Origin: Candidatus Zapsychrus exili
Lineage (GTDB): Bacteria > Omnitrophota > Gorgyraeia > Zapsychrales > Zapsychraceae
Reading direction: 5' to 3'
Assembly: GCA_030765585.1 (NCBI GenBank)
Contig: JAVCCJ010000069.1
Location: forward strand, 1 to 46,158
Length of the DNA: 46,158 bases
Made by a program: the position numbers and the translations under genes. Each line of letters starts with the position of its first letter. The first letter of the stretch is position 1. The notes under the pieces were generated by a model. The model ran no database searches, was not told where the DNA came from, and was given only the letters and a program-made list of their open reading frames with translations. Shown piece by piece: positions 1 to 9,519 of the stretch.

Positions 1-3000
1 TATATACGTTAATATTGCCTCACTTTTACGCCAATCTACAACACGAGCATCTTTCAAGCCTAAGGCTTCTTTAGCAGAAGTTACTGCTATTTTTTCTGCC
101 TCGTCAAGTATCAACATTGCTTTATCAACTTGTACTATCTGTTGTTTTTTCTTTTGATCAAACGCTTGTTTTGCAAAATGTAAAATAGCTTCTGCTTCAC
201 TTAATGCTTCTACTCTATCTATTGTTTTTAGACTTTTAGCAAGTTCTCCAATAATTTTAATAGAATTTAATTCATGCTCTGGATTCAAAAGATAAAGTTT
301 GATCATATCTCTTCCTTCATCAGTTACATTTTTATTAGCGAAGCTCTTCACAACTTCTGATGCAATTTGCTCGTCTCTCTCAACATTCTCTCCCAACCGA
401 TCAACTGCCCATCTCTTCATTCTATCTTCTAGCTTTTCTAAAGCTTTTTTACTATTCTTTGCTATCCCAAAGATTCTTACGCCAACTTCTGTAACCTCAA
501 AGGAATTATTGCTTGTAGAATTCCTTTGCGTTCCAAAAGGAATTTCTCTTACATTATAAATAATTTTTATATCTCCAAAATCTCTTTCCATATTCTTTAA
601 AATATTCATTATATTCCAAAACTTAGATTTTTCTAAAATATGAAAATAATTCATTTCCAATTCTGCTTTTGATAAACCATCATATTTCTCTCTTATTGGC
701 TCTCCACCAACAAATGAAAACGGTACATTTGCTTGTTTTATGTCATTAACAGGCTCTTTCCACATAGATAGGCCGCTTCTCAATATTCCCAGCGCCTTGC
801 TTACTTCTCCAAATCTTCCTGAGAATTTAGAAACTGAAAAACCTTTGCCTTTAAACTCTTCTAAAATTCCTCTCTGCTCTCTTAATTCTCCCTGTCTAAA
901 CATTAACCAAAGCCCCAACTCTTCTTTAAGCTTTTTAAGATTCTCTTCAGTATTTTTTGAATTCTTCTTATACACTATTGAAGTTCTATAGACTTCTACA
1001 CCATCAACTTCCCTCCTGCTATACTGAATATCTACTCCGGAGAAATCCTTTTCTATCATATACAATACATCGTTTAGCAACCAAAACTCTTTTACTTGCT
1101 CAGGATAATCTTCCAGTTTTCCACCATTAATATGTATGCTAACAGGATGCATCTTAAATCTTGCTTCACTCACATCATTTGTATTGTACCTATTAACAAC
1201 AATAGCTTTCTTTGTTTTATAATATGCATGTATACCAAGTGCATCATTTGGAAGAATGTTATGATAAAGATTATTTATAGCACCCAAATGTTTTTGACTT
1301 AACATCGCTTGATCAGCAGGATTATCTTTCTCTAATGCTTCAATCTGTTCAATAACGCTTGGCAAATGTTGAGACAATTCTGTTGCCTCCAAAATTTGCT
1401 TTTGTGCCAATAATCCGACTTTTTCTGCAGCATAATAATTATCAGCTTTTATTCTTGCCAAAACCTCACCCTTAATATCCGAAACACTTTCTACCAACTG
1501 AACATAAAATCTTAAAGTTTGAGAAGTTCCTGACGGACGAATGGTTATGTAATTCTTACTATCTCTAAAGTCAGATTCTTCAGTAAGATTCGAATCTTCA
1601 AAAAAGAATCTAATTCCCTCATCAGGAGCATTTTCATAAATTAAATGATCTGCTCTTCCAGATCTAAAATCAACTGCTCCAATAACTTTCCTGCCAGCAA
1701 TAACAAGAGAATCTCCCTCTCCATTTGCTCTTTTTAACCATTCTTCTGTTTTTTCAATAATTTGAATTTTATCAGAAACACCTGCCGCACCTTCAAAAGA
1801 CCCAATCCTCGGCAAGGCTTTATTAGCTGTTGCATAATGTCCTATTTGTCTATAGATACCATCTAGTAGCTCAAACATAGTCGTACCTTGTGATTCTGCA
1901 TACGCAGCTACTTCGGCCAAAAGAACAGATGCCAATGTCCCATCCTTTTCGAAAGTATGTCCAGTCACGCTAAAACCATTTGATTCTTCAAAAGAATAAA
2001 CACGAATTCCATCTTTCATTGCCTCTTCCATAATTTCTGCAAGATATGTAAATCCAACCCAAGTACGAGAATTTGTTAAATAATTTCCTCGATCAACTTT
2101 TCCTGTTTTATCCTTCATCCTTCCAAGAGCATCAACCCCAAATGTTTTTGCAATCTCTGCGATAGCATCTGTTGTCACATGACTAATAGCAACCTTCGTT
2201 TTGTTAAGATCTACCTTTCCTAACTCGCTTCCTCGTTTTAGCTGATACCACAACAATAATGTCCATGCATCGTTTGCAGAAAGCAGACGAGATTTTCCAA
2301 AATATTTCTGCTGATTTACTGGAACTTTTACCTCTATACCTGTTCGATCTGCATCAGGATCTGTTCCTAATAATATATCTAATGCGTCAAATGCATCTTG
2401 CCCATATTCTTCAATAAATTCTCGAACAGCAGCTTTTCCTGCTAATGGATCGCCAGGATCAGGCTGTTCTCCCCATCCAAAGGCAGGAAATAAACCGTCC
2501 AATTTTTGAAGGGCTGTAATAGCTTTATAATTTGTAAATCCTATTTCCTTCAACAATCTTGGCACTGCTTTAAAACCAGCACCATTATATGCAGAATACC
2601 CTATCTGAATTTTATTGCCCCATTCTTCTATTAACGTTTCATCCACCAAAAACTTCTTAACTTGATTAACATGCAGAGTATGCATATCCTCTAGAGGAAA
2701 ATCATAGTATTCTTTGTTTGAAAGCTTTTCGTTCCCACCAAGCCATACGAGGTTCCCAGGCTTTGCCTCTGTAATAGACTTGGCTAATTTTATTTCAGAA
2801 AACTCAACATTAGGGACTTTCGCAGAAACAGCATCTTTAACTTCTTGATTTAACTGAGCTCCATTCTCCAATGTAATTTTATATCCATTATAAATATTAG
2901 GATTATGACTAGCGGACATTAAAATTCCAATATCTGCCTTTACAAGATCTGTTGTAATCCCGTAACTTAATTCTGGGAAAGGGCTAGCTTCATCAAAAAG

Positions 3001-3396
3001 AAATATTTTAAACTCATGCGAAGCCTCTGACTGTCCAATAAATAACCGTGCAACCATATCAGCAAATTCTGCACCAGCAATACGACTATCATAACCAATC
3101 AACACTTTCTTTAATCCATTTTCTTTTGCATATTTGATTACAGCCATTGTTTCAAGAAAGATAACAATATCATTAATCATATTAGGGCCTTTTAAAATTT
3201 TCGCCCCAATACCTTCTTCTTTTAACTTTAAAAGCTCTTCTTTTGTAAAAACAGCCTTACCTCTTACTCCTGCAGTTCCAAATGAAATCAATTGTCGGTA
3301 AGCTTCAATGATTTCATCCCAGCGTCCTTCCTTCATAGCTTCAACAACTCCAGCCTTATAATTTGGAGAAAGCACATCCAACTCTTTAGAAGTCAT
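1..3396 (-). CDS. Phosphoglucomutase-containing part of the giant glycolytic polyprotein (partial, runs off the window)
   Basis: The minus strand is open from the TGA at 3436-3438 to the window edge, so the C-terminus is outside the window. It encodes a complete alpha-D-phosphohexomutase of the PGM2-like type, which interconverts glucose-1-phosphate and glucose-6-phosphate. All four motifs are present: FGTAGVRG (about 3259-3282), the catalytic phosphoserine loop SASHNP (2899-2916), the metal loop DPDADR (2344-2361), and the sugar and phosphate loops EESNG (about 1970-1989) and RPSGT (1525-1539). After the mutase comes a linker with DQAML (1300-1314), then some 400 residues I do not recognise, containing a related DKAML near 115-130. 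The first ATG after the stop is at 3394-3396, with no convincing ribosome site. The frame is the same as the upstream polyprotein, so I infer one gene broken at the junction rather than two genes. Confidence 0.75.
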   Translation of the reverse strand, partial: MTSKELDVLSPNYKAGVVEAMKEGRWDEIIEAYRQLISFGTAGVRGKAVFTKEELLKLKEEGIGAKILKGPNMINDIVIFLETMAVIKYAKENGLKKVLIGYDSRIAGAEFADMVARLFIGQSEASHEFKIFLFDEASPFPELSYGITTDLVKADIGILMSASHNPNIYNGYKITLENGAQLNQEVKDAVSAKVPNVEFSEIKLAKSITEAKPGNLVWLGGNEKLSNKEYYDFPLEDMHTLHVNQVKKFLVDETLIEEWGNKIQIGYSAYNGAGFKAVPRLLKEIGFTNYKAITALQKLDGLFPAFGWGEQPDPGDPLAGKAAVREFIEEYGQDAFDALDILLGTDPDADRTGIEVKVPVNQQKYFGKSRLLSANDAWTLLLWYQLKRGSELGKVDLNKTKVAISHVTTDAIAEIAKTFGVDALGRMKDKTGKVDRGNYLTNSRTWVGFTYLAEIMEEAMKDGIRVYSFEESNGFSVTGHTFEKDGTLASVLLAEVAAYAESQGTTMFELLDGIYRQIGHYATANKALPRIGSFEGAAGVSDKIQIIEKTEEWLKRANGEGDSLVIAGRKVIGAVDFRSGRADHLIYENAPDEGIRFFFEDSNLTEESDFRDSKNYITIRPSGTSQTLRFYVQLVESVSDIKGEVLARIKADNYYAAEKVGLLAQKQILEATELSQHLPSVIEQIEALEKDNPADQAMLSQKHLGAINNLYHNILPNDALGIHAYYKTKKAIVVNRYNTNDVSEARFKMHPVSIHINGGKLEDYPEQVKEFWLLNDVLYMIEKDFSGVDIQYSRREVDGVEVYRTSIVYKKNSKNTEENLKKLKEELGLWLMFRQGELREQRGILEEFKGKGFSVSKFSGRFGEVSKALGILRSGLSMWKEPVNDIKQANVPFSFVGGEPIREKYDGLSKAELEMNYFHILEKSKFWNIMNILKNMERDFGDIKIIYNVREIPFGTQRNSTSNNSFEVTEVGVRIFGIAKNSKKALEKLEDRMKRWAVDRLGENVERDEQIASEVVKSFANKNVTDEGRDMIKLYLLNPEHELNSIKIIGELAKSLKTIDRVEALSEAEAILHFAKQAFDQKKKQQIVQVDKAMLILDEAEKIAVTSAKEALGLKDARVVDWRKSEAILTYI

Positions 3397-3435
3397 CCAC
3401 TGCTTAAGGTTACGATACGTATTAGCCGTAGCTTT

Positions 3436-3510
3436 TCATGAATTCCTTTGTAATCTTTTGCTTTTAATTGCGCATCTAATCTCTTTTAATTTCCTTTCTG
3501 CCTTTGGAAG
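3436..3510 (-). other. Broken junction between PGI and PGM modules (probable paired frameshifts)
   Basis: After KAERKLKEI the annotated frame reads RCAIKSKRLQRNS then TGA. Shifting by one base gives DAQLKAKDYKGIHEK, a hydrophilic helical linker, and shifting back beyond about 3430 gives ATANTYRNLKQWM, which leads straight into the phosphoglucomutase N-terminus. A one-base gain near 3480 and a one-base loss in the A-run near 3430 would restore a single open frame. Because the frames before and after are identical, a simple TGA readthrough would also join them. I cannot tell an assembly error from a real lesion. Confidence 0.55.
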
Positions 3511-6500
3511 ATATGTCATGTTGATTTCTTCCTGCAATTCTTCTGTCAACATCGCTTGATCTTTATTAAACTTTTCATCAAACTTTCTAATTGTTTTAAT
3601 AGCAGAAGTAGAAAGTCCGGAAGTTTCTAGCTTTGAAGTATCAATAATAGAAGGAAGAACTTTATTTGTTGCAACTTTCTTGCCTAATTGAACTCCCCAC
3701 TGATCAAAAGAAAAAATATTCCAAATAACACCTTCTGCAAATATTTGATGCTCATACATAGAAATAAGATTTCCTAAAGCTCTAGGAGTAACTTTATCTA
3801 TCAATATTGATGTAGTAGGTCTATTTCCTGGAAAAGTTTTGTGTTGAGAAAGCATTCTAAGCCACTCGAGATCAACCGTTTTATTTTTAGGATCAGCTTC
3901 AAGTTCTGCTAATGCCTCCTCTTGGGTTAAACCAAAGGCTAAAGCTTCTGTCTGAGCTATGTAATTAGAGAAGAACTTATCATGATGTCCTTCTACTAAG
4001 TTTTGAGGATTAATAACTCCAATAAAGTCCGCTGGTATTATTCCGCCTTCTATCATTTGATGAAGTAATTGATAAAAAGAATGTTGTCCATCAGTTCCAG
4101 CAGCGCCAAATACAGCGAGTCCAGTAGGGTAATCAACAGGATTTCCATTGCGGTCAACAAACTTTCCATTGCTTTCCATAAAAAATTGTTGTGAGAACGA
4201 TGGAATCAATCCTAAGTTTTCATCATAAGGTAGAATAGCAAAACTTTTTGCTCCCAAGAAATTACCATACCAAATATTTAAAAGTGCTTTTAAAACAGGA
4301 ATATTATCTTGGAATTCTGTTTTTCTAAAATGTTCATCTGATTCCCTAGCACCTTCTAAGAATTCAAGAAAATTATCAAATCCCGCGTATATTGATACAG
4401 ACAATCCAATAGCTGACCAAACTGAATAACGTCCGCCAACCCAATCCCAAAATTCAAACATATTTTCTGTGTCAATTCCAAACTCTTTAACAAGCTTCTC
4501 TGCTGTTGAAACAGCAACAAAATGTTTTTCAATAATTTCTTTATCTCTGATTGGAGTATTCTTAAATAATTTATTAAGCCTAGTATTCATAATTCTTTCA
4601 GCAAAAGAACCAGATGGACTTAACTTACTCAGAAATCTTCTTAATGGTTTCTTGTTATAAGAGTCAAGAACCCATTTTCTTAATGTTTGTGCATTTTGCA
4701 TAGTTTCTTGAGTTGTAAAAGTTTTAGATGCAATAATCACAAGCGTTTCTTCTGGGTCTAAATTCTTCATAAGCTCAGCAACTGCATTTCCATCGATATT
4801 GGAAAGAAAATAAGTATTTACATCGCCTTGTTTGTAAGGTTTTAAAGCTTCAACTGCCATTTTTGGCCCTAATGCAGAGCCTCCGATACCTACATTAATA
4901 ACATTCTTTATTTTTTTACCAGTTGCTCCGCGCCATTGTCCTGATTGAACTTTCTTTGTAAAACCTTCCATCTTATTAAGTACAGCAATAACTTTAGGCA
5001 TTACATCTTCTTTATCAACTAAAACAGGACCATTAGCCGCAACGAGCTTGCCTTCTTCATTCCTTTTAACATTACGAAGTGCAGTATGAAGAACAGCACG
5101 ATTTTCTGTTTCATTTATTTTTGCCCCAGTAAACATAAGCTCAATAGCGCCTTTTAATCCAGATTCTTCTGCAAGTAATAACAAGGCATTTAAGATTGTA
5201 TCATCAATGAGGTTCTTCGAAAAATCCACCTCAAAACCATCATTTAATTTTTTAAGAAGCTTAATTGCACGCTCAGGATTTTCATTAAATAACTTTCTAA
5301 GATCAAGTTTCCTAGCTGCATTTGCTTCTAAAAATTCCCAAGCATCTGTTTTTGCTGGATTAACACGAGGAAGAACGCCTGCCACCATCGCTTGATCTGT
5401 CATATCTCTCTTCAATTTAAAATCATATTTCAACAGGCCTTGTTTTGTTTCATTTACTGCAATTTGGCCAATATCTTTCTTAGCAAGAAGTTCTCTGCTT
5501 GTATGCCCTCTTAATTGACCGACAGTATCTATACCATGTCCCTTTAAAAGGTTCGCTGTTTTTTTAGATATCGGAAGCGCATCTACCGATTGATTGCTTA
5601 TAGGGAAAAGTGCTCTGTTAGCTAATTGATATTCCTCTTTATTGATTCCTTCAATTTTAACTTCGCGTCCGCCAAGATTTTTTTGAAGTGTCATTGATCT
5701 AACAATTCCATTTTTTGTTCTATAAAGAATTCTGTTATTAGTTCCTTTTTCCCAAAGCTCATTTATAGCAGCTGTTCCTAAATCTTGTGTTAAACCATAA
5801 TCAAAATCAGAGATATCGGCTTCTCTTGTTGCATAATCTTCTTTACCTACCAAAGATATCTTTGTGTCCAATGCGACTCCCAAAGGCTCAAGAAGATTAA
5901 CTAAAGTCTTTGCAGCGTCTTTTAATTTTGCATGTCCGAACGAATCTACCTCAATATTTGCTGGAATTACTATATCATCTAAACTAAATTTAATACCTTC
6001 AGACACTACAACCAAACCATAACCATGCTCTTTGTAAAATTTAGCTAAATCTACTTTTAATTTCTCGATATCTACGGGTCCTTCCTCAGGAATTATTGAT
6101 CTTGTTGCACCAACACCTTCACCTATACCAATAGTTGTAAAACCAGCATCGCGCCCAAAAACCTCTACCACCATTATTCTTCCCAAATTTATCGCAGAAG
6201 TCTTTATTGCCTTTGCTCTTCTTATTCCTTCTTGAACAAAAGTATCATACCCATATGTTGAAACCCCACCTGGAAGAGTTATATCATTGTCCATTGTCTT
6301 AGGCACACCTAACACCATAAGATCTGGAAACATTTTCTGAAGTTTTTGCGCAGCTCCATTTGTATCATCTCCACCGCAAGTGATAAGAGCGTCTAGTCCA
6401 AGCTTTTGAACATTGCCTCTTACTTTTTCTGGAACACCATCCTTTATATTTTTAGTACTAAAAGGATTTGTTCTAGATGTTCCAATAAAAGACCCACCTT

Positions 6501-9500
6501 TTTTCTCATGAAGTTCAGCTTCCTCTATATCTATAACTTCTGCTTGTTCTACTAAATTATCCTCCACTAATCCAGCCCAACCACTCTTTATTCCAACTAA
6601 TACTACCTTTTTGCCAGTCTTTTTGCTTAACTCCATTGTTTGTCTTTTAGCTGCTGTTATAAGAGAGTTATGACCTGTTGCAAGCCCACCACCAGTTAAA
6701 ATACCAATTTTTATTACATCTTTATCTAATGTGCTAAGTGGCGCTAATTTCTTTGCCATCATTGCTTGGTCATAAGAAGTAACTTTGGCTAATGATTGTC
6801 TATTATTTTCTGCTGCAATTATTGTGTCTTCTGGTTCTTTTACTGGAGCGAAAATATCTTTTCTTGGCGCATTATAATATGCAACCTTAGCCCCATCTAT
6901 ATGAGCTACTTGAAGCATAATTCTAGTAAGCTGGACAACAGGTATTTCTGTTTTTCCATCTTTTACTATACCTATATCAGAATATTCTCCATCTACTACA
7001 TGTTTCTTAAATTCAAAATTAGCTTTTATTTGTTTAACTAATTTTTCACGAACCAATTCAGACCTTTCCTCAAAATTCATTTCAGCAAGTTCTTTTTCTG
7101 TAACGTCTAGAAACCTAAGCAAACTTTTTGCTCTTAAGATAACTGTATTTGTATTAAAGAATGGGGCATTTGCATGATCAAAATCAGGCTGCAATTCAAA
7201 TCCCTCTTTCATCGTTACTTCGCCTGTTCTATCTTCTTTCTCGTCAACATATTCGACTAAAGTCCCACCAGTCTCAGGCTTTGAGAATATTTCAGCTTCA
7301 ATATAGCCTCCATCAAAAATATTAACAACATCGACTGTTTTGTCTTTTTGGTTAATTACATATCTAACGCCATTTTTCTCTGCGAAACCTTCATATTCAT
7401 TTATTCCATCAAAAGATATTAAATTGTCTCTAAATCGAACAATGGCTTTAACTGCTACTTTTGATTTCTTATGTTTTATGGTGTAAGTTATATTCTTCTC
7501 GGCAAGTAAAAATCCAAAATCGCTTTCGCTTTTGGCAAAATGAGCAAGCATACCGTCATTTTTTAAAACAGCCTGCAAATTATCAATATTAAAAACAGGA
7601 ATATACTCTACTCCTTGAGACAGGGCATCTGAAAACCTTCCAGATATGATAAATGATGCAACTGCATCAAAATGCCCAGCAGGAACTTTTCTCTCTTTAC
7701 CATTAAATCTATAAATACCATCAGGATTTTCTTTTCTTATTTTAGAAGCTAAGGCCTTAAATTTTGACCACTCTTGTTTTTTATAGTTCGCTTCTATTTC
7801 TTGATCTGTTGGAATAAAAGTGTCTATTACCCCCTGAACAAAAAATTTAAAAGTTTTTTCTCTCATTCCATAATAATTCTTTTCTATCGCTAATTGCTCT
7901 TTAAACTCTGCCAATCTCTTTTCGCTCGATAAAAGATACAAGGGCACTTCTTCACCAAAAGTTTTTTCTATCCATCTAATATTCGCAGCTTTTATCTCTA
8001 AGAAATCACCTAATGTCGCATCAACCTTAACAAAAGTTTTTGGACCTCCGAAACGCGTTGCCTCTCCGCCTATCATAACTATTGGAGCAATCTTGCCATC
8101 TCTATACATTTCAGCCTCTGCTTCTACATACGCTTTTTTTGCATTACTATCTAAACTAGACCAATCTATAACTGCCTCTACCTTTGCTGGAACAACTTTT
8201 TTTGGATCAACATTCTTATGAAAACCTATTTTACCTTCATTTCTTTGCTTAACTAGCTGTTGAAAATCTTCAAGAGTAATTGTAGCTGCTGTTATTTCTC
8301 CTTCTTCGGTAATCATCGCCGCATCACTACCTGCTTTAGCAACAAGGATACCTACCTCATCTAAAGACTCTGCAAGATTCACATTTACTCTACTAGTTAA
8401 CCCTGCCACATCAGCCGCTTGTGCTAATAAAGCACTATCAACTGTATTCTCATTAACTGTTTTTATGACTTTACTAAATTCTTGATTCATACCACCAGAG
8501 AAGTATTTCTTAGGTATGATTTCTTGTGTTTCTGAATTGTACTCTTCCTTTATATAGTTATATACGCCTGTCTTAAACGCTTCTAGGTATTGATTATAAA
8601 TTTCTTGCTTTACATTCTTGTTCTCTAAATCTATTCCAGTTACTTTGTTTTGATCTACATATACTTTGCCTAATAAAGATTCTTTTAGATTCATCTTAAA
8701 CCAGGTAGCAAGTATCATAGAATTTGATATTTGTCTTAGAAGAGCAAAGTTTTTGCCTGTATTTACTTCACGTTCTAGTTCAGGGATGATGATTTCTTTT
8801 ATTATTTGAGTAGTAGTTGAATTATCTAATGCAGTGCCTTCTTTAGTTGAAAGATATTCTTTATCTAGTAAGACCTTTAGTTCTGATTCAAGTACAAAAG
8901 CAGAGTTATCTTTTTCATATACAGTTGCAGAACTTGGAACTATCCAAACTCTGTTTAGAGTATCTGTATTTATATCAGTTGTTCCAAACTCTTGCTTTGT
9001 TCTTTTATATATCTTATTCCAGAATTTCTTACCTGTTTCTCCTTCAGGATGCATTAAAGAAGCTGTTAATTGCTTTAATATATAGTCCTGAGCAAGTAAA
9101 TCACGGCCCATTTCAGTATGACCTAGCTTCTCAGGCATTATTTTATCTGGTTGAGATGGGTTTAAATTGACCCATAATTGATCTTCAGGAACGGTAAGTG
9201 TTGCAAGGAAATATTTGATGAGTTTAAGTGATTCTTCTTCTAATTGCTCCCCTTTTAGCTTATTATCACCAGAATCAACGATAAAGTCGAATTCTAGAGG
9301 ATTTTCAGGATGAATTGTTATCCCTTTTACTATTGTGGGGGTGAAATCATTGCTAAGTGGCACAATTTGCCCTAAAATAGGCATATTTGTACTGTTAAGT
9401 GACACACTCTGCCCATATGAAGGCGGAATAATAGCAGTAAATACAAATGAAAATGCTATAAATGAACATAATACTTTATAAGCTAAACTTGTTTTTGATT

Positions 9501-9519
9501 TTGGAATAGAACTCATCAT
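3436..9519 (-). CDS. Giant exported polyprotein: N-domain, UDP-glucose pyrophosphorylase, phosphofructokinase, glucose-6-phosphate isomerase
   Basis: This 2027-residue protein opens with a signal peptide (hydrophobic core about 15-31, likely cleavage after SYG at 36). Residues about 45-395 are a domain I associate with Omnitrophica large proteins, of unknown function. Residues about 400-915 are a UDPGP-family nucleotidyltransferase: GGEATRFGGPK at 484-494, later NIDNLQA. Residues 935-1370 are phosphofructokinase: GGDDT at 1049-1053 and PKTMDND at 1073-1079, the pattern of PPi-dependent enzymes rather than the ATP form (GGDGS, PGTIDND). Residues 1376-1985 are phosphoglucose isomerase: GGSALGP at 1546, GGRYS with Arg1697, QLLHQ and FDQWGVQLGKK. 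Modules are separated by DAAM/DQAM motifs at residues 399, 917, 1375 and 1987. An AGGAGG lies 9 bases before the ATG. The stop falls just after the last linker, and a phosphoglucomutase follows in the same frame, so the true product was probably longer. Confidence 0.93.
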   Translation of the reverse strand: MMSSIPKSKTSLAYKVLCSFIAFSFVFTAIIPPSYGQSVSLNSTNMPILGQIVPLSNDFTPTIVKGITIHPENPLEFDFIVDSGDNKLKGEQLEEESLKLIKYFLATLTVPEDQLWVNLNPSQPDKIMPEKLGHTEMGRDLLAQDYILKQLTASLMHPEGETGKKFWNKIYKRTKQEFGTTDINTDTLNRVWIVPSSATVYEKDNSAFVLESELKVLLDKEYLSTKEGTALDNSTTTQIIKEIIIPELEREVNTGKNFALLRQISNSMILATWFKMNLKESLLGKVYVDQNKVTGIDLENKNVKQEIYNQYLEAFKTGVYNYIKEEYNSETQEIIPKKYFSGGMNQEFSKVIKTVNENTVDSALLAQAADVAGLTSRVNVNLAESLDEVGILVAKAGSDAAMITEEGEITAATITLEDFQQLVKQRNEGKIGFHKNVDPKKVVPAKVEAVIDWSSLDSNAKKAYVEAEAEMYRDGKIAPIVMIGGEATRFGGPKTFVKVDATLGDFLEIKAANIRWIEKTFGEEVPLYLLSSEKRLAEFKEQLAIEKNYYGMREKTFKFFVQGVIDTFIPTDQEIEANYKKQEWSKFKALASKIRKENPDGIYRFNGKERKVPAGHFDAVASFIISGRFSDALSQGVEYIPVFNIDNLQAVLKNDGMLAHFAKSESDFGFLLAEKNITYTIKHKKSKVAVKAIVRFRDNLISFDGINEYEGFAEKNGVRYVINQKDKTVDVVNIFDGGYIEAEIFSKPETGGTLVEYVDEKEDRTGEVTMKEGFELQPDFDHANAPFFNTNTVILRAKSLLRFLDVTEKELAEMNFEERSELVREKLVKQIKANFEFKKHVVDGEYSDIGIVKDGKTEIPVVQLTRIMLQVAHIDGAKVAYYNAPRKDIFAPVKEPEDTIIAAENNRQSLAKVTSYDQAMMAKKLAPLSTLDKDVIKIGILTGGGLATGHNSLITAAKRQTMELSKKTGKKVVLVGIKSGWAGLVEDNLVEQAEVIDIEEAELHEKKGGSFIGTSRTNPFSTKNIKDGVPEKVRGNVQKLGLDALITCGGDDTNGAAQKLQKMFPDLMVLGVPKTMDNDITLPGGVSTYGYDTFVQEGIRRAKAIKTSAINLGRIMVVEVFGRDAGFTTIGIGEGVGATRSIIPEEGPVDIEKLKVDLAKFYKEHGYGLVVVSEGIKFSLDDIVIPANIEVDSFGHAKLKDAAKTLVNLLEPLGVALDTKISLVGKEDYATREADISDFDYGLTQDLGTAAINELWEKGTNNRILYRTKNGIVRSMTLQKNLGGREVKIEGINKEEYQLANRALFPISNQSVDALPISKKTANLLKGHGIDTVGQLRGHTSRELLAKKDIGQIAVNETKQGLLKYDFKLKRDMTDQAMVAGVLPRVNPAKTDAWEFLEANAARKLDLRKLFNENPERAIKLLKKLNDGFEVDFSKNLIDDTILNALLLLAEESGLKGAIELMFTGAKINETENRAVLHTALRNVKRNEEGKLVAANGPVLVDKEDVMPKVIAVLNKMEGFTKKVQSGQWRGATGKKIKNVINVGIGGSALGPKMAVEALKPYKQGDVNTYFLSNIDGNAVAELMKNLDPEETLVIIASKTFTTQETMQNAQTLRKWVLDSYNKKPLRRFLSKLSPSGSFAERIMNTRLNKLFKNTPIRDKEIIEKHFVAVSTAEKLVKEFGIDTENMFEFWDWVGGRYSVWSAIGLSVSIYAGFDNFLEFLEGARESDEHFRKTEFQDNIPVLKALLNIWYGNFLGAKSFAILPYDENLGLIPSFSQQFFMESNGKFVDRNGNPVDYPTGLAVFGAAGTDGQHSFYQLLHQMIEGGIIPADFIGVINPQNLVEGHHDKFFSNYIAQTEALAFGLTQEEALAELEADPKNKTVDLEWLRMLSQHKTFPGNRPTTSILIDKVTPRALGNLISMYEHQIFAEGVIWNIFSFDQWGVQLGKKVATNKVLPSIIDTSKLETSGLSTSAIKTIRKFDEKFNKDQAMLTEELQEEINMTYLPKAERKLKEIRCAIKSKRLQRNS

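Follow-up and report, generated by a model that had tools for sequence, protein, structure and literature searches.

A candidate processing peptide, D-x-A-M, at the module seams of putative exported polyproteins in Omnitrophota

Viral polyproteins, such as those processed by potyvirus NIa or picornavirus 3C, encode several proteins in one open reading frame (ORF) and carry at the seams between them a short consensus that varies between lineages. Multi-enzyme fusions, such as PGK-TIM, transaldolase-PGI and AROM-like proteins, join enzymes of one pathway; to our knowledge, these fusions are cytosolic and have no genome-wide separator. A third point of comparison comes from the phylum Omnitrophota, for which Seymour et al. 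(2023, PMC10066038) described giant ORFs, including one for a 39,678-amino acid (aa) protein in Velamenicoccus archaeovorus. Here, we describe a recurring peptide, D-x-A-M (D.AM), in two ORFs of Candidatus Zapsychrus exili, a member of the same phylum. The stretch of DNA analysed, which we refer to as the window, is contig JAVCCJ010000069.1 at its full length of 46,158 nt (contig C83 of a 129-contig, 2.04-Mb metagenome-assembled genome [MAG], hereafter the Zapsychrus genome). We propose, with a probability of about 0.55, that D-x-A-M-[LVIT]-[AST] is the separator of this lineage, a processing site in a large family of exported polyproteins.

The Zapsychrus ORFs share with viral polyproteins both the several proteins per ORF and the variable seam consensus, but they are bacterial, belong to a family with many genes per genome (16 full copies of a shared N-terminal domain, the N-domain, in this genome), start with a signal peptide-like sequence and carry metabolic cargo, and their cutting is a prediction. 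Unlike the enzymes in PGK-TIM, transaldolase-PGI and AROM-like fusions, the enzymes fused here are extra copies: free-standing PGI, PGK and three PFKs are also encoded in the Zapsychrus genome, which rules out the fused enzymes as sole copies and makes the fused set an additional one. With the giants of PMC10066038 they share the phylum, very long ORFs, a proposed extracellular location and few annotated domains; unlike those giants, which the accessible portion of that paper treats as single adhesion or predation proteins, they are strings of complete metabolic enzymes with recurrent peptides, and a term search of that same portion returned no mention of polyproteins or fusions. The two window ORFs measure 6.1 and 3.4 kb, the shorter one being clipped by the contig end, and lie below the giant-ORF threshold of >20 kb; in relatives that use other separators, ORFs of 35 and 59 kb occur. 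No description of the DxAM motif or of Omnitrophota polyproteins was found in the literature searched, a scope that excluded bioRxiv and most subscription journals.

An earlier sequence-only reading of the window had listed six copies of the peptide, the first four between recognisable modules and the fifth after phosphoglucomutase (PGM). All six are present, on the minus strand (Table 1), and Pfam matches and alignments verified the placement of these five. ORF A contains, in order, the N-domain, a UTP-glucose-1-phosphate uridylyltransferase-like module (UDPGP), PFK, glucose-6-phosphate isomerase (PGI) and a C-terminal end, with separators in between; its Pfam matches span aa 418-565 (UDPGP), 937-1225 (PFK), 1309-1362 (an RNAP alpha-CTD-like helix-hairpin-helix) and 1432-1971 (PGI). 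Several complete proteins lie in one reading frame: UDPGP, PFK and PGI stand between separators in ORF A, and GAPDH, PGK and enolase are joined at a second Zapsychrus locus, L001. The modules of the window share a frame but, where the earlier reading spoke of one polyprotein, they are divided between two same-frame ORFs, A and B, by a TGA at 3436-3438. That reading was right to place the motif at seams, but the second residue is not strictly Q and can be Q, K, N, A, S or E. Among N-domain ORFs, the consensus extends to D-[QASKNE]-A-M-[LVTI]-[AST]-[DE], with little conservation past position +6.

The peptide is far more frequent in these proteins than their composition predicts, with expected counts computed from letter frequencies only and the statistics for the Zapsychrus proteome drawn from selected stretches of the genome. 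The 12,203 aa of cargo in eight Zapsychrus polyproteins contain 35 D.AM sites against 1.16 expected (Poisson 6e-39), and N-domain ORFs taken from many genomes, 101 in total, contain 178 where 17.3 would be expected. Elsewhere in the window there is no enrichment: its 29 remaining long ORFs (10,406 aa) have one D.AM, with 0.7 expected. The pattern GAYCARGCNATG has 21 matches in the Zapsychrus genome, mostly in further long proteins of equivalent architecture, and its reversed control has none. These data bear on the possibility that the linkers are merely rich in D, A and M. The composition of linker flanks is indeed different, but the remaining five permutations of the three letters occur only 9 to 28 times each, compared with 178 for D.AM. 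Moreover, D.AM heads an unbiased k-mer ranking of the cargo of the eight polyproteins, and it leads this ranking in eight genomes. Letter permutations, the other window ORFs and the reversed DNA pattern together refute chance or composition as the source of the motif, and we regard this explanation as having practically no likelihood.

The sites are confined to the borders of domains. The earlier reading had named a motif frequency no higher at borders than within domains as the result that would speak against it, and this result was not obtained: in 12 proteins, 0 of 64 D.AM sites fall within Pfam or N-domain envelopes, where 15.5 would be expected, and none of 100,000 simulated draws was as low, in a simulation that treats sites as independent and uses HMM envelopes that may be shorter than the true domains. 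In the fused PGI, DQAM-VAG-VLPRVNPAKTDAW aligns with MLKNINPTQTQAW of the solved PGI 3hjb, such that only 3 residues lie between the end of the separator and the aligned native Met1 (construct residue 25 of 3hjb, in our reading of that entry). Six fused PGIs of this 550-aa type, including some from genomes with other separators, all show the separator ending 0 to 4 residues ahead of the aligned native Met1. PFK begins about 15 residues past its separator. Flanks of D.AM are more disorder-prone than random positions in the same proteins (0.114 vs 0.081, TOP-IDP, p = 5e-10). BLAST comparisons between relatives yielded too few cargo pairs to read motif conservation within aligned linkers, with only 8 D.AM sites covered, but half of the cargo alignment ends (50%) lay within 40 aa of a D.AM, compared with 21% of random points. 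The first separator follows the N-domain by at most 91 aa in 38 of the 56 separator-bearing proteins, and the last precedes a C-terminal domain (C-domain; GGIDLN...GFVPVIINITPVTNLPLLLG) that usually ends the polyproteins; the cargo is therefore bracketed by separators.

The codons used at these sites indicate what has been conserved. The earlier reading had noted an identical DNA string at three sites, and GATCAAGCGATG (equivalent to CATCGCTTGATC) is indeed found at 1303, 3550 and 5386, with GACCAAGCAATG at 6760. This identity would suit a DNA scar left by a duplication or recombination device that built the gene fusions, as would the recent copying suggested by two N-domains described below. 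However, the 45 sites of the extended motif in the Zapsychrus genome comprise 44 distinct 18-mers, the second residue varies, and other lineages carry unrelated peptides at equivalent seams. Moreover, in two of those peptides, SSP[VI] and R[SA]E[AV]R, Ser codons mix TCN with AGY and Arg codons mix CGN with AGR. The separator is selected as a peptide and not as DNA. This diversity of codons excludes a recent DNA duplication device and refutes the scar for the family as a whole, an origin we consider very unlikely. Hence, of the three interpretations that the earlier reading had offered, a processing site and a docking or linker motif survive, and the trace of a duplication does not. The ATG within DxAM raises the alternative that it is an internal translation start, from which separate enzymes would be made on one message. 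Every D.AM contains an ATG and modules begin shortly after it, but Shine-Dalgarno-like words precede only 1 of 35 motif ATGs, compared with 23 of 263 other ATGs, and other lineages use separators without an ATG (SSP[VI], R[SA]E[ALV]R and DNGG). We therefore reject internal starts, whose probability we judge to be lower still than that of a DNA scar.

The replacement of the separator in sister lineages favours its recognition by a trans-acting factor. SSP[VI], R[SA]E[ALV]R and DNGG occupy equivalent seams in other Omnitrophota; in the MAGs JAFGFL and JAGLQN, SSP[VI] ranks first among k-mers, and D.AM occurs once or not at all. Among 35 genomes with sufficient cargo, 13 have only D.AM, 6 only SSP, none both and 16 neither. 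Directly before the C-domain, D.AM-type genomes have D.A[MLVI] in 33 of 41 proteins and SSP in none, and SSP-type genomes have S[SA]P[VIALM] in 8 of 11 proteins and D.AM in none. The local separator is likewise found at the borders of PGK in six further genomes (Table 1). On the N-domain tree, separator labels group together: they require 9 changes, compared with 14.5 after shuffling (none of 500 shuffles was as low), and several switches are seen. A long array is found in genome G050, where an 11,858-aa ORF (contig C42, L153-L155) has a signal peptide-like start, an N-terminal region that differs from the N-domain type, and modules for transketolase, PfkB, GDH, PALP, hexokinase, PGM, UDPGP, KDPG aldolase, transaldolase and PGI; none of its 29 R[SA]E[AVIT]R separators lies within an enzyme. 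The same ORF holds apparent translated dispersed repeats (SSVIPAKAGIQLDPHLRGDD and similar).

That a trans-acting factor recognises the separators is well supported, because a genome uses a single kind of peptide, which occurs only at seams, flanks the cargo on both sides and is swapped in sister lineages. The main rival to processing is that the separators are uncut linker or docking motifs, bound by a factor or scaffold that holds the chain or a compartment, as in a metabolon or a translocation or assembly tag. A bound short linear motif would fit placement, per-genome uniformity and lineage switching equally, and an uncut chain would itself hold pathway enzymes together (PFK-PGI-PGM; GAPDH-PGK-enolase). 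However, the motif also stands between the N- or C-domain and the cargo, where docking is less needed, and it has been swapped wholesale even though the N- and C-domains are conserved. In addition, many of the enzymes carried are oligomeric, and leaving the chain uncut would cross-link them. We consider docking possible but doubtful, and the factor is most simply an endoprotease.

In the processing model, precursors would leave the cytoplasm via a Sec signal, and a genome-specific endoprotease would then cut the separators to free the individual enzymes as well as the N- and C-domains. The separator would switch between lineages because protease and cut sites change together. Several observations weigh against this model. 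The cutting is predicted from sequence, which is reflected in the probability given above, and no candidate protease has been identified, no systematic search having been made. The tandem GAPDH-GAPDH border at L001, a fusion also present in Aceula lacicola (L081), has no separator, so some domain borders are not seams; the GDH-PALP border in G050 also lacks the motif. In other lineages, a recognised separator is missing from many N-domain ORFs, as the 16 genomes with neither D.AM nor SSP illustrate. The D.AM codons of the Zapsychrus loci favour GCA/GCG and GTG beyond the usual usage of their genes. Finally, the export of ATP- or NAD-dependent enzymes would be physiologically odd. In the loci of genome JAGVNC, D.AM codons favour GAC/GCG (L037, L040, L041, L042 and L072 among the Zapsychrus and JAGVNC loci listed).

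The proposal of export derives from the family's N-termini. A signal peptide-like start, with a K/R-rich stretch, a hydrophobic core and an AxA-like site, is found in 63 of 75 N-domain ORFs by a sequence rule and not by a trained predictor; it suggests that the polyproteins are Sec substrates. The predicted signal peptidase sites (N-domain ORFs, L011-L089) mostly lie between [YF]A and Q, leaving Gln exposed. This resembles the "Q-rule" of Bacteroidetes (PMC5837995), and no report of such a pattern for Omnitrophota was met in the literature searched. The N-domain, of about 284 aa in ORF A, has no match in Pfam or NCBIfam, and its AlphaFold model, of modest quality (pLDDT 75), has no fold match in the PDB (best E 0.53); the C-domain likewise has no Pfam or NCBIfam match. 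Of 193 Omnitrophota genomes sampled, 56 encode N-domains, and these 56 belong to a single class; a first look gave as many as 77 candidates in one genome. The relatives of the N-domain are Candidatus Omnitrophota MAGs except for a few labelled "bacterium" and one labelled "Planctomycetales". The N-domains of the window (8491-9519) and of L001 (4984-6000) are 98% identical, and other Zapsychrus copies are 54-64% identical; the pair, from precursors for upper and lower glycolysis, respectively, probably reflects recent copying or gene conversion.

The cargo of L001 consists of tandem GAPDH, PGK, enolase and a class II aldolase-like module, and other Zapsychrus polyproteins carry methyltransferases, acetyltransferases, NUDIX and a histidine-kinase-type ATPase. 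The GAPDH, PGK and enolase of L001 retain their catalytic motifs as judged by eye. The fused PFK has GGDDT and PKTMDND, the signature of PPi-dependent members of the PFK family; an enzyme of this type would suit a site without ATP. The fused PGI of the window has FGAAGTDGQH in place of WGEPGTNGQH, such that the catalytic Glu is replaced by Ala, and it may therefore have lost its isomerase activity. The Glu is retained by the 13 other PGIs of the 550-aa type, some fused and some free-standing, that were compared in this region. We tentatively suggest, at slightly less than even odds, that Omnitrophota have a dedicated system in which dozens of precursors per genome, each with signal peptide, N-domain and C-domain, export a second set of central-metabolism enzymes, and a lineage-specific protease releases them at a peptide that changes in concert.

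If both processing and export occur, a second glycolysis and sugar-phosphate metabolism would lie outside the cytoplasm, made by a polyprotein logic otherwise tied to viruses. By analogy only, this would resemble the spatially separate second glycolysis of trypanosome glycosomes; unlike in glycosomes, there is no evidence here of an organelle, and targeting would use a Sec signal and a polyprotein. The concerted replacement of a peptide across a genome would be a rare bacterial case of co-evolution between an enzyme and its sites at dozens of loci, and many "hypothetical giant proteins" would turn into lists of enzymes. Since the separators give exact, genome-specific positions for cut ends, existing mass-spectrometry data could decide the matter; for V. 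archaeovorus, such a dataset is available as PRIDE PXD025008, which is cited in PMC12583861.

Table 1. Features of the window and separators at equivalent seams in other genomes
Feature	Position or genome	Strand	Details
ORF A	3436..9519	-	2027 aa; signal peptide-like start, N-domain, UDPGP, PFK, PGI; ORF call, Pfam, NCBIfam
Signal peptide-like N-terminus of ORF A	9409..9519	-	MMSSIPKSKTSLAYKVLCSFIAFSFVFTAIIPPSYGQ; read from sequence
N-domain of ORF A	8491..9342	-	conserved family
Separator DAAM(ITE)	8314..8325	-	N-domain/UDPGP seam; aa 399 of ORF A
UDPGP module	6772..8313	-	PF01704
Separator DQAM(MAK)	6760..6771	-	UDPGP/PFK seam; aa 917 of ORF A
PFK module with RNAP alpha-CTD-like helix-hairpin-helix tail	5398..6759	-	Pfam, NCBIfam
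Separator DQAM(VAG)	5386..5397	-	PFK/PGI seam; aa 1375 of ORF A
PGI module, 550-aa type	3562..5385	-	Pfam, alignment
Separator DQAM(LTE)	3550..3561	-	PGI/PGM seam; aa 1987 of ORF A
Single in-frame TGA between ORFs A and B	3436..3438	-	
ORF B	1..3435	-	frame of ORF A; open at contig end
PGM module of ORF B	about 1315-3396	-	Pfam
Separator DQAM(LSQ)	1303..1314	-	after PGM; aa 708 of ORF B
Further module of ORF B	127-1302	-	identity not assigned
Separator DKAM(LIL)	115..126	-	close to contig end; aa 1104 of ORF B
PGK seams	Zapsychrus genome		DQAMVAS, DQAMTTR
PGK seams, D.AM-like genomes	G238, G223, G127		DAAMLSS, DTAMLAP, DGAMLSE, respectively
PGK seams, SSP-like genomes	G110, G232, G193		SSPASF, SSPVTA, ASPVLA, respectively
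Fused PGI seam	window		DQAM-VAG-VLPRVNP
Fused PGI seam	G050		RSEAR-RFPKVNP
Fused PGI seam	G066		RSEAR-EGVLPRVNP
Fused PGI seam	G062		RSEAR-SQEGVLPRVKP
Fused PGI seam	G078		RAELR-ALQSINP
Fused PGI seam	G063		DNGG-TDEITMPKINP

Two close-by, mutually compensating single-base indels seem to have produced the TGA between ORFs A and B, and the alternative frame between these putative indels encodes a coherent helix-like linker. Several Zapsychrus polyproteins are broken by one stop or frameshift, at 3436-3438 in the window, 1810-1812 in L003 and 10692-10774 in L004. The frame of the free-standing PGK in the same assembly is short as well (289 aa), suggesting that indel errors in the assembly are likely; the breaks in the polyproteins are likely to be such errors, and they may also be real.

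Clear separators were not found in G161, G162, G145 or JANLHA. The N-domain polyproteins of JANLHA (L017, L018, L027 and L087) lack D.AM and SSP, and their top k-mers, N.W.I and RVGG, may represent either a further separator or a domain that is repeated. In genome G063, a 19,582-aa ORF (contig C1, L150-L152) has recurring FES[AG]MSPE (five copies and one variant) and DNGG (five copies), which are possibly further separators, the borders having been examined at PGI only.

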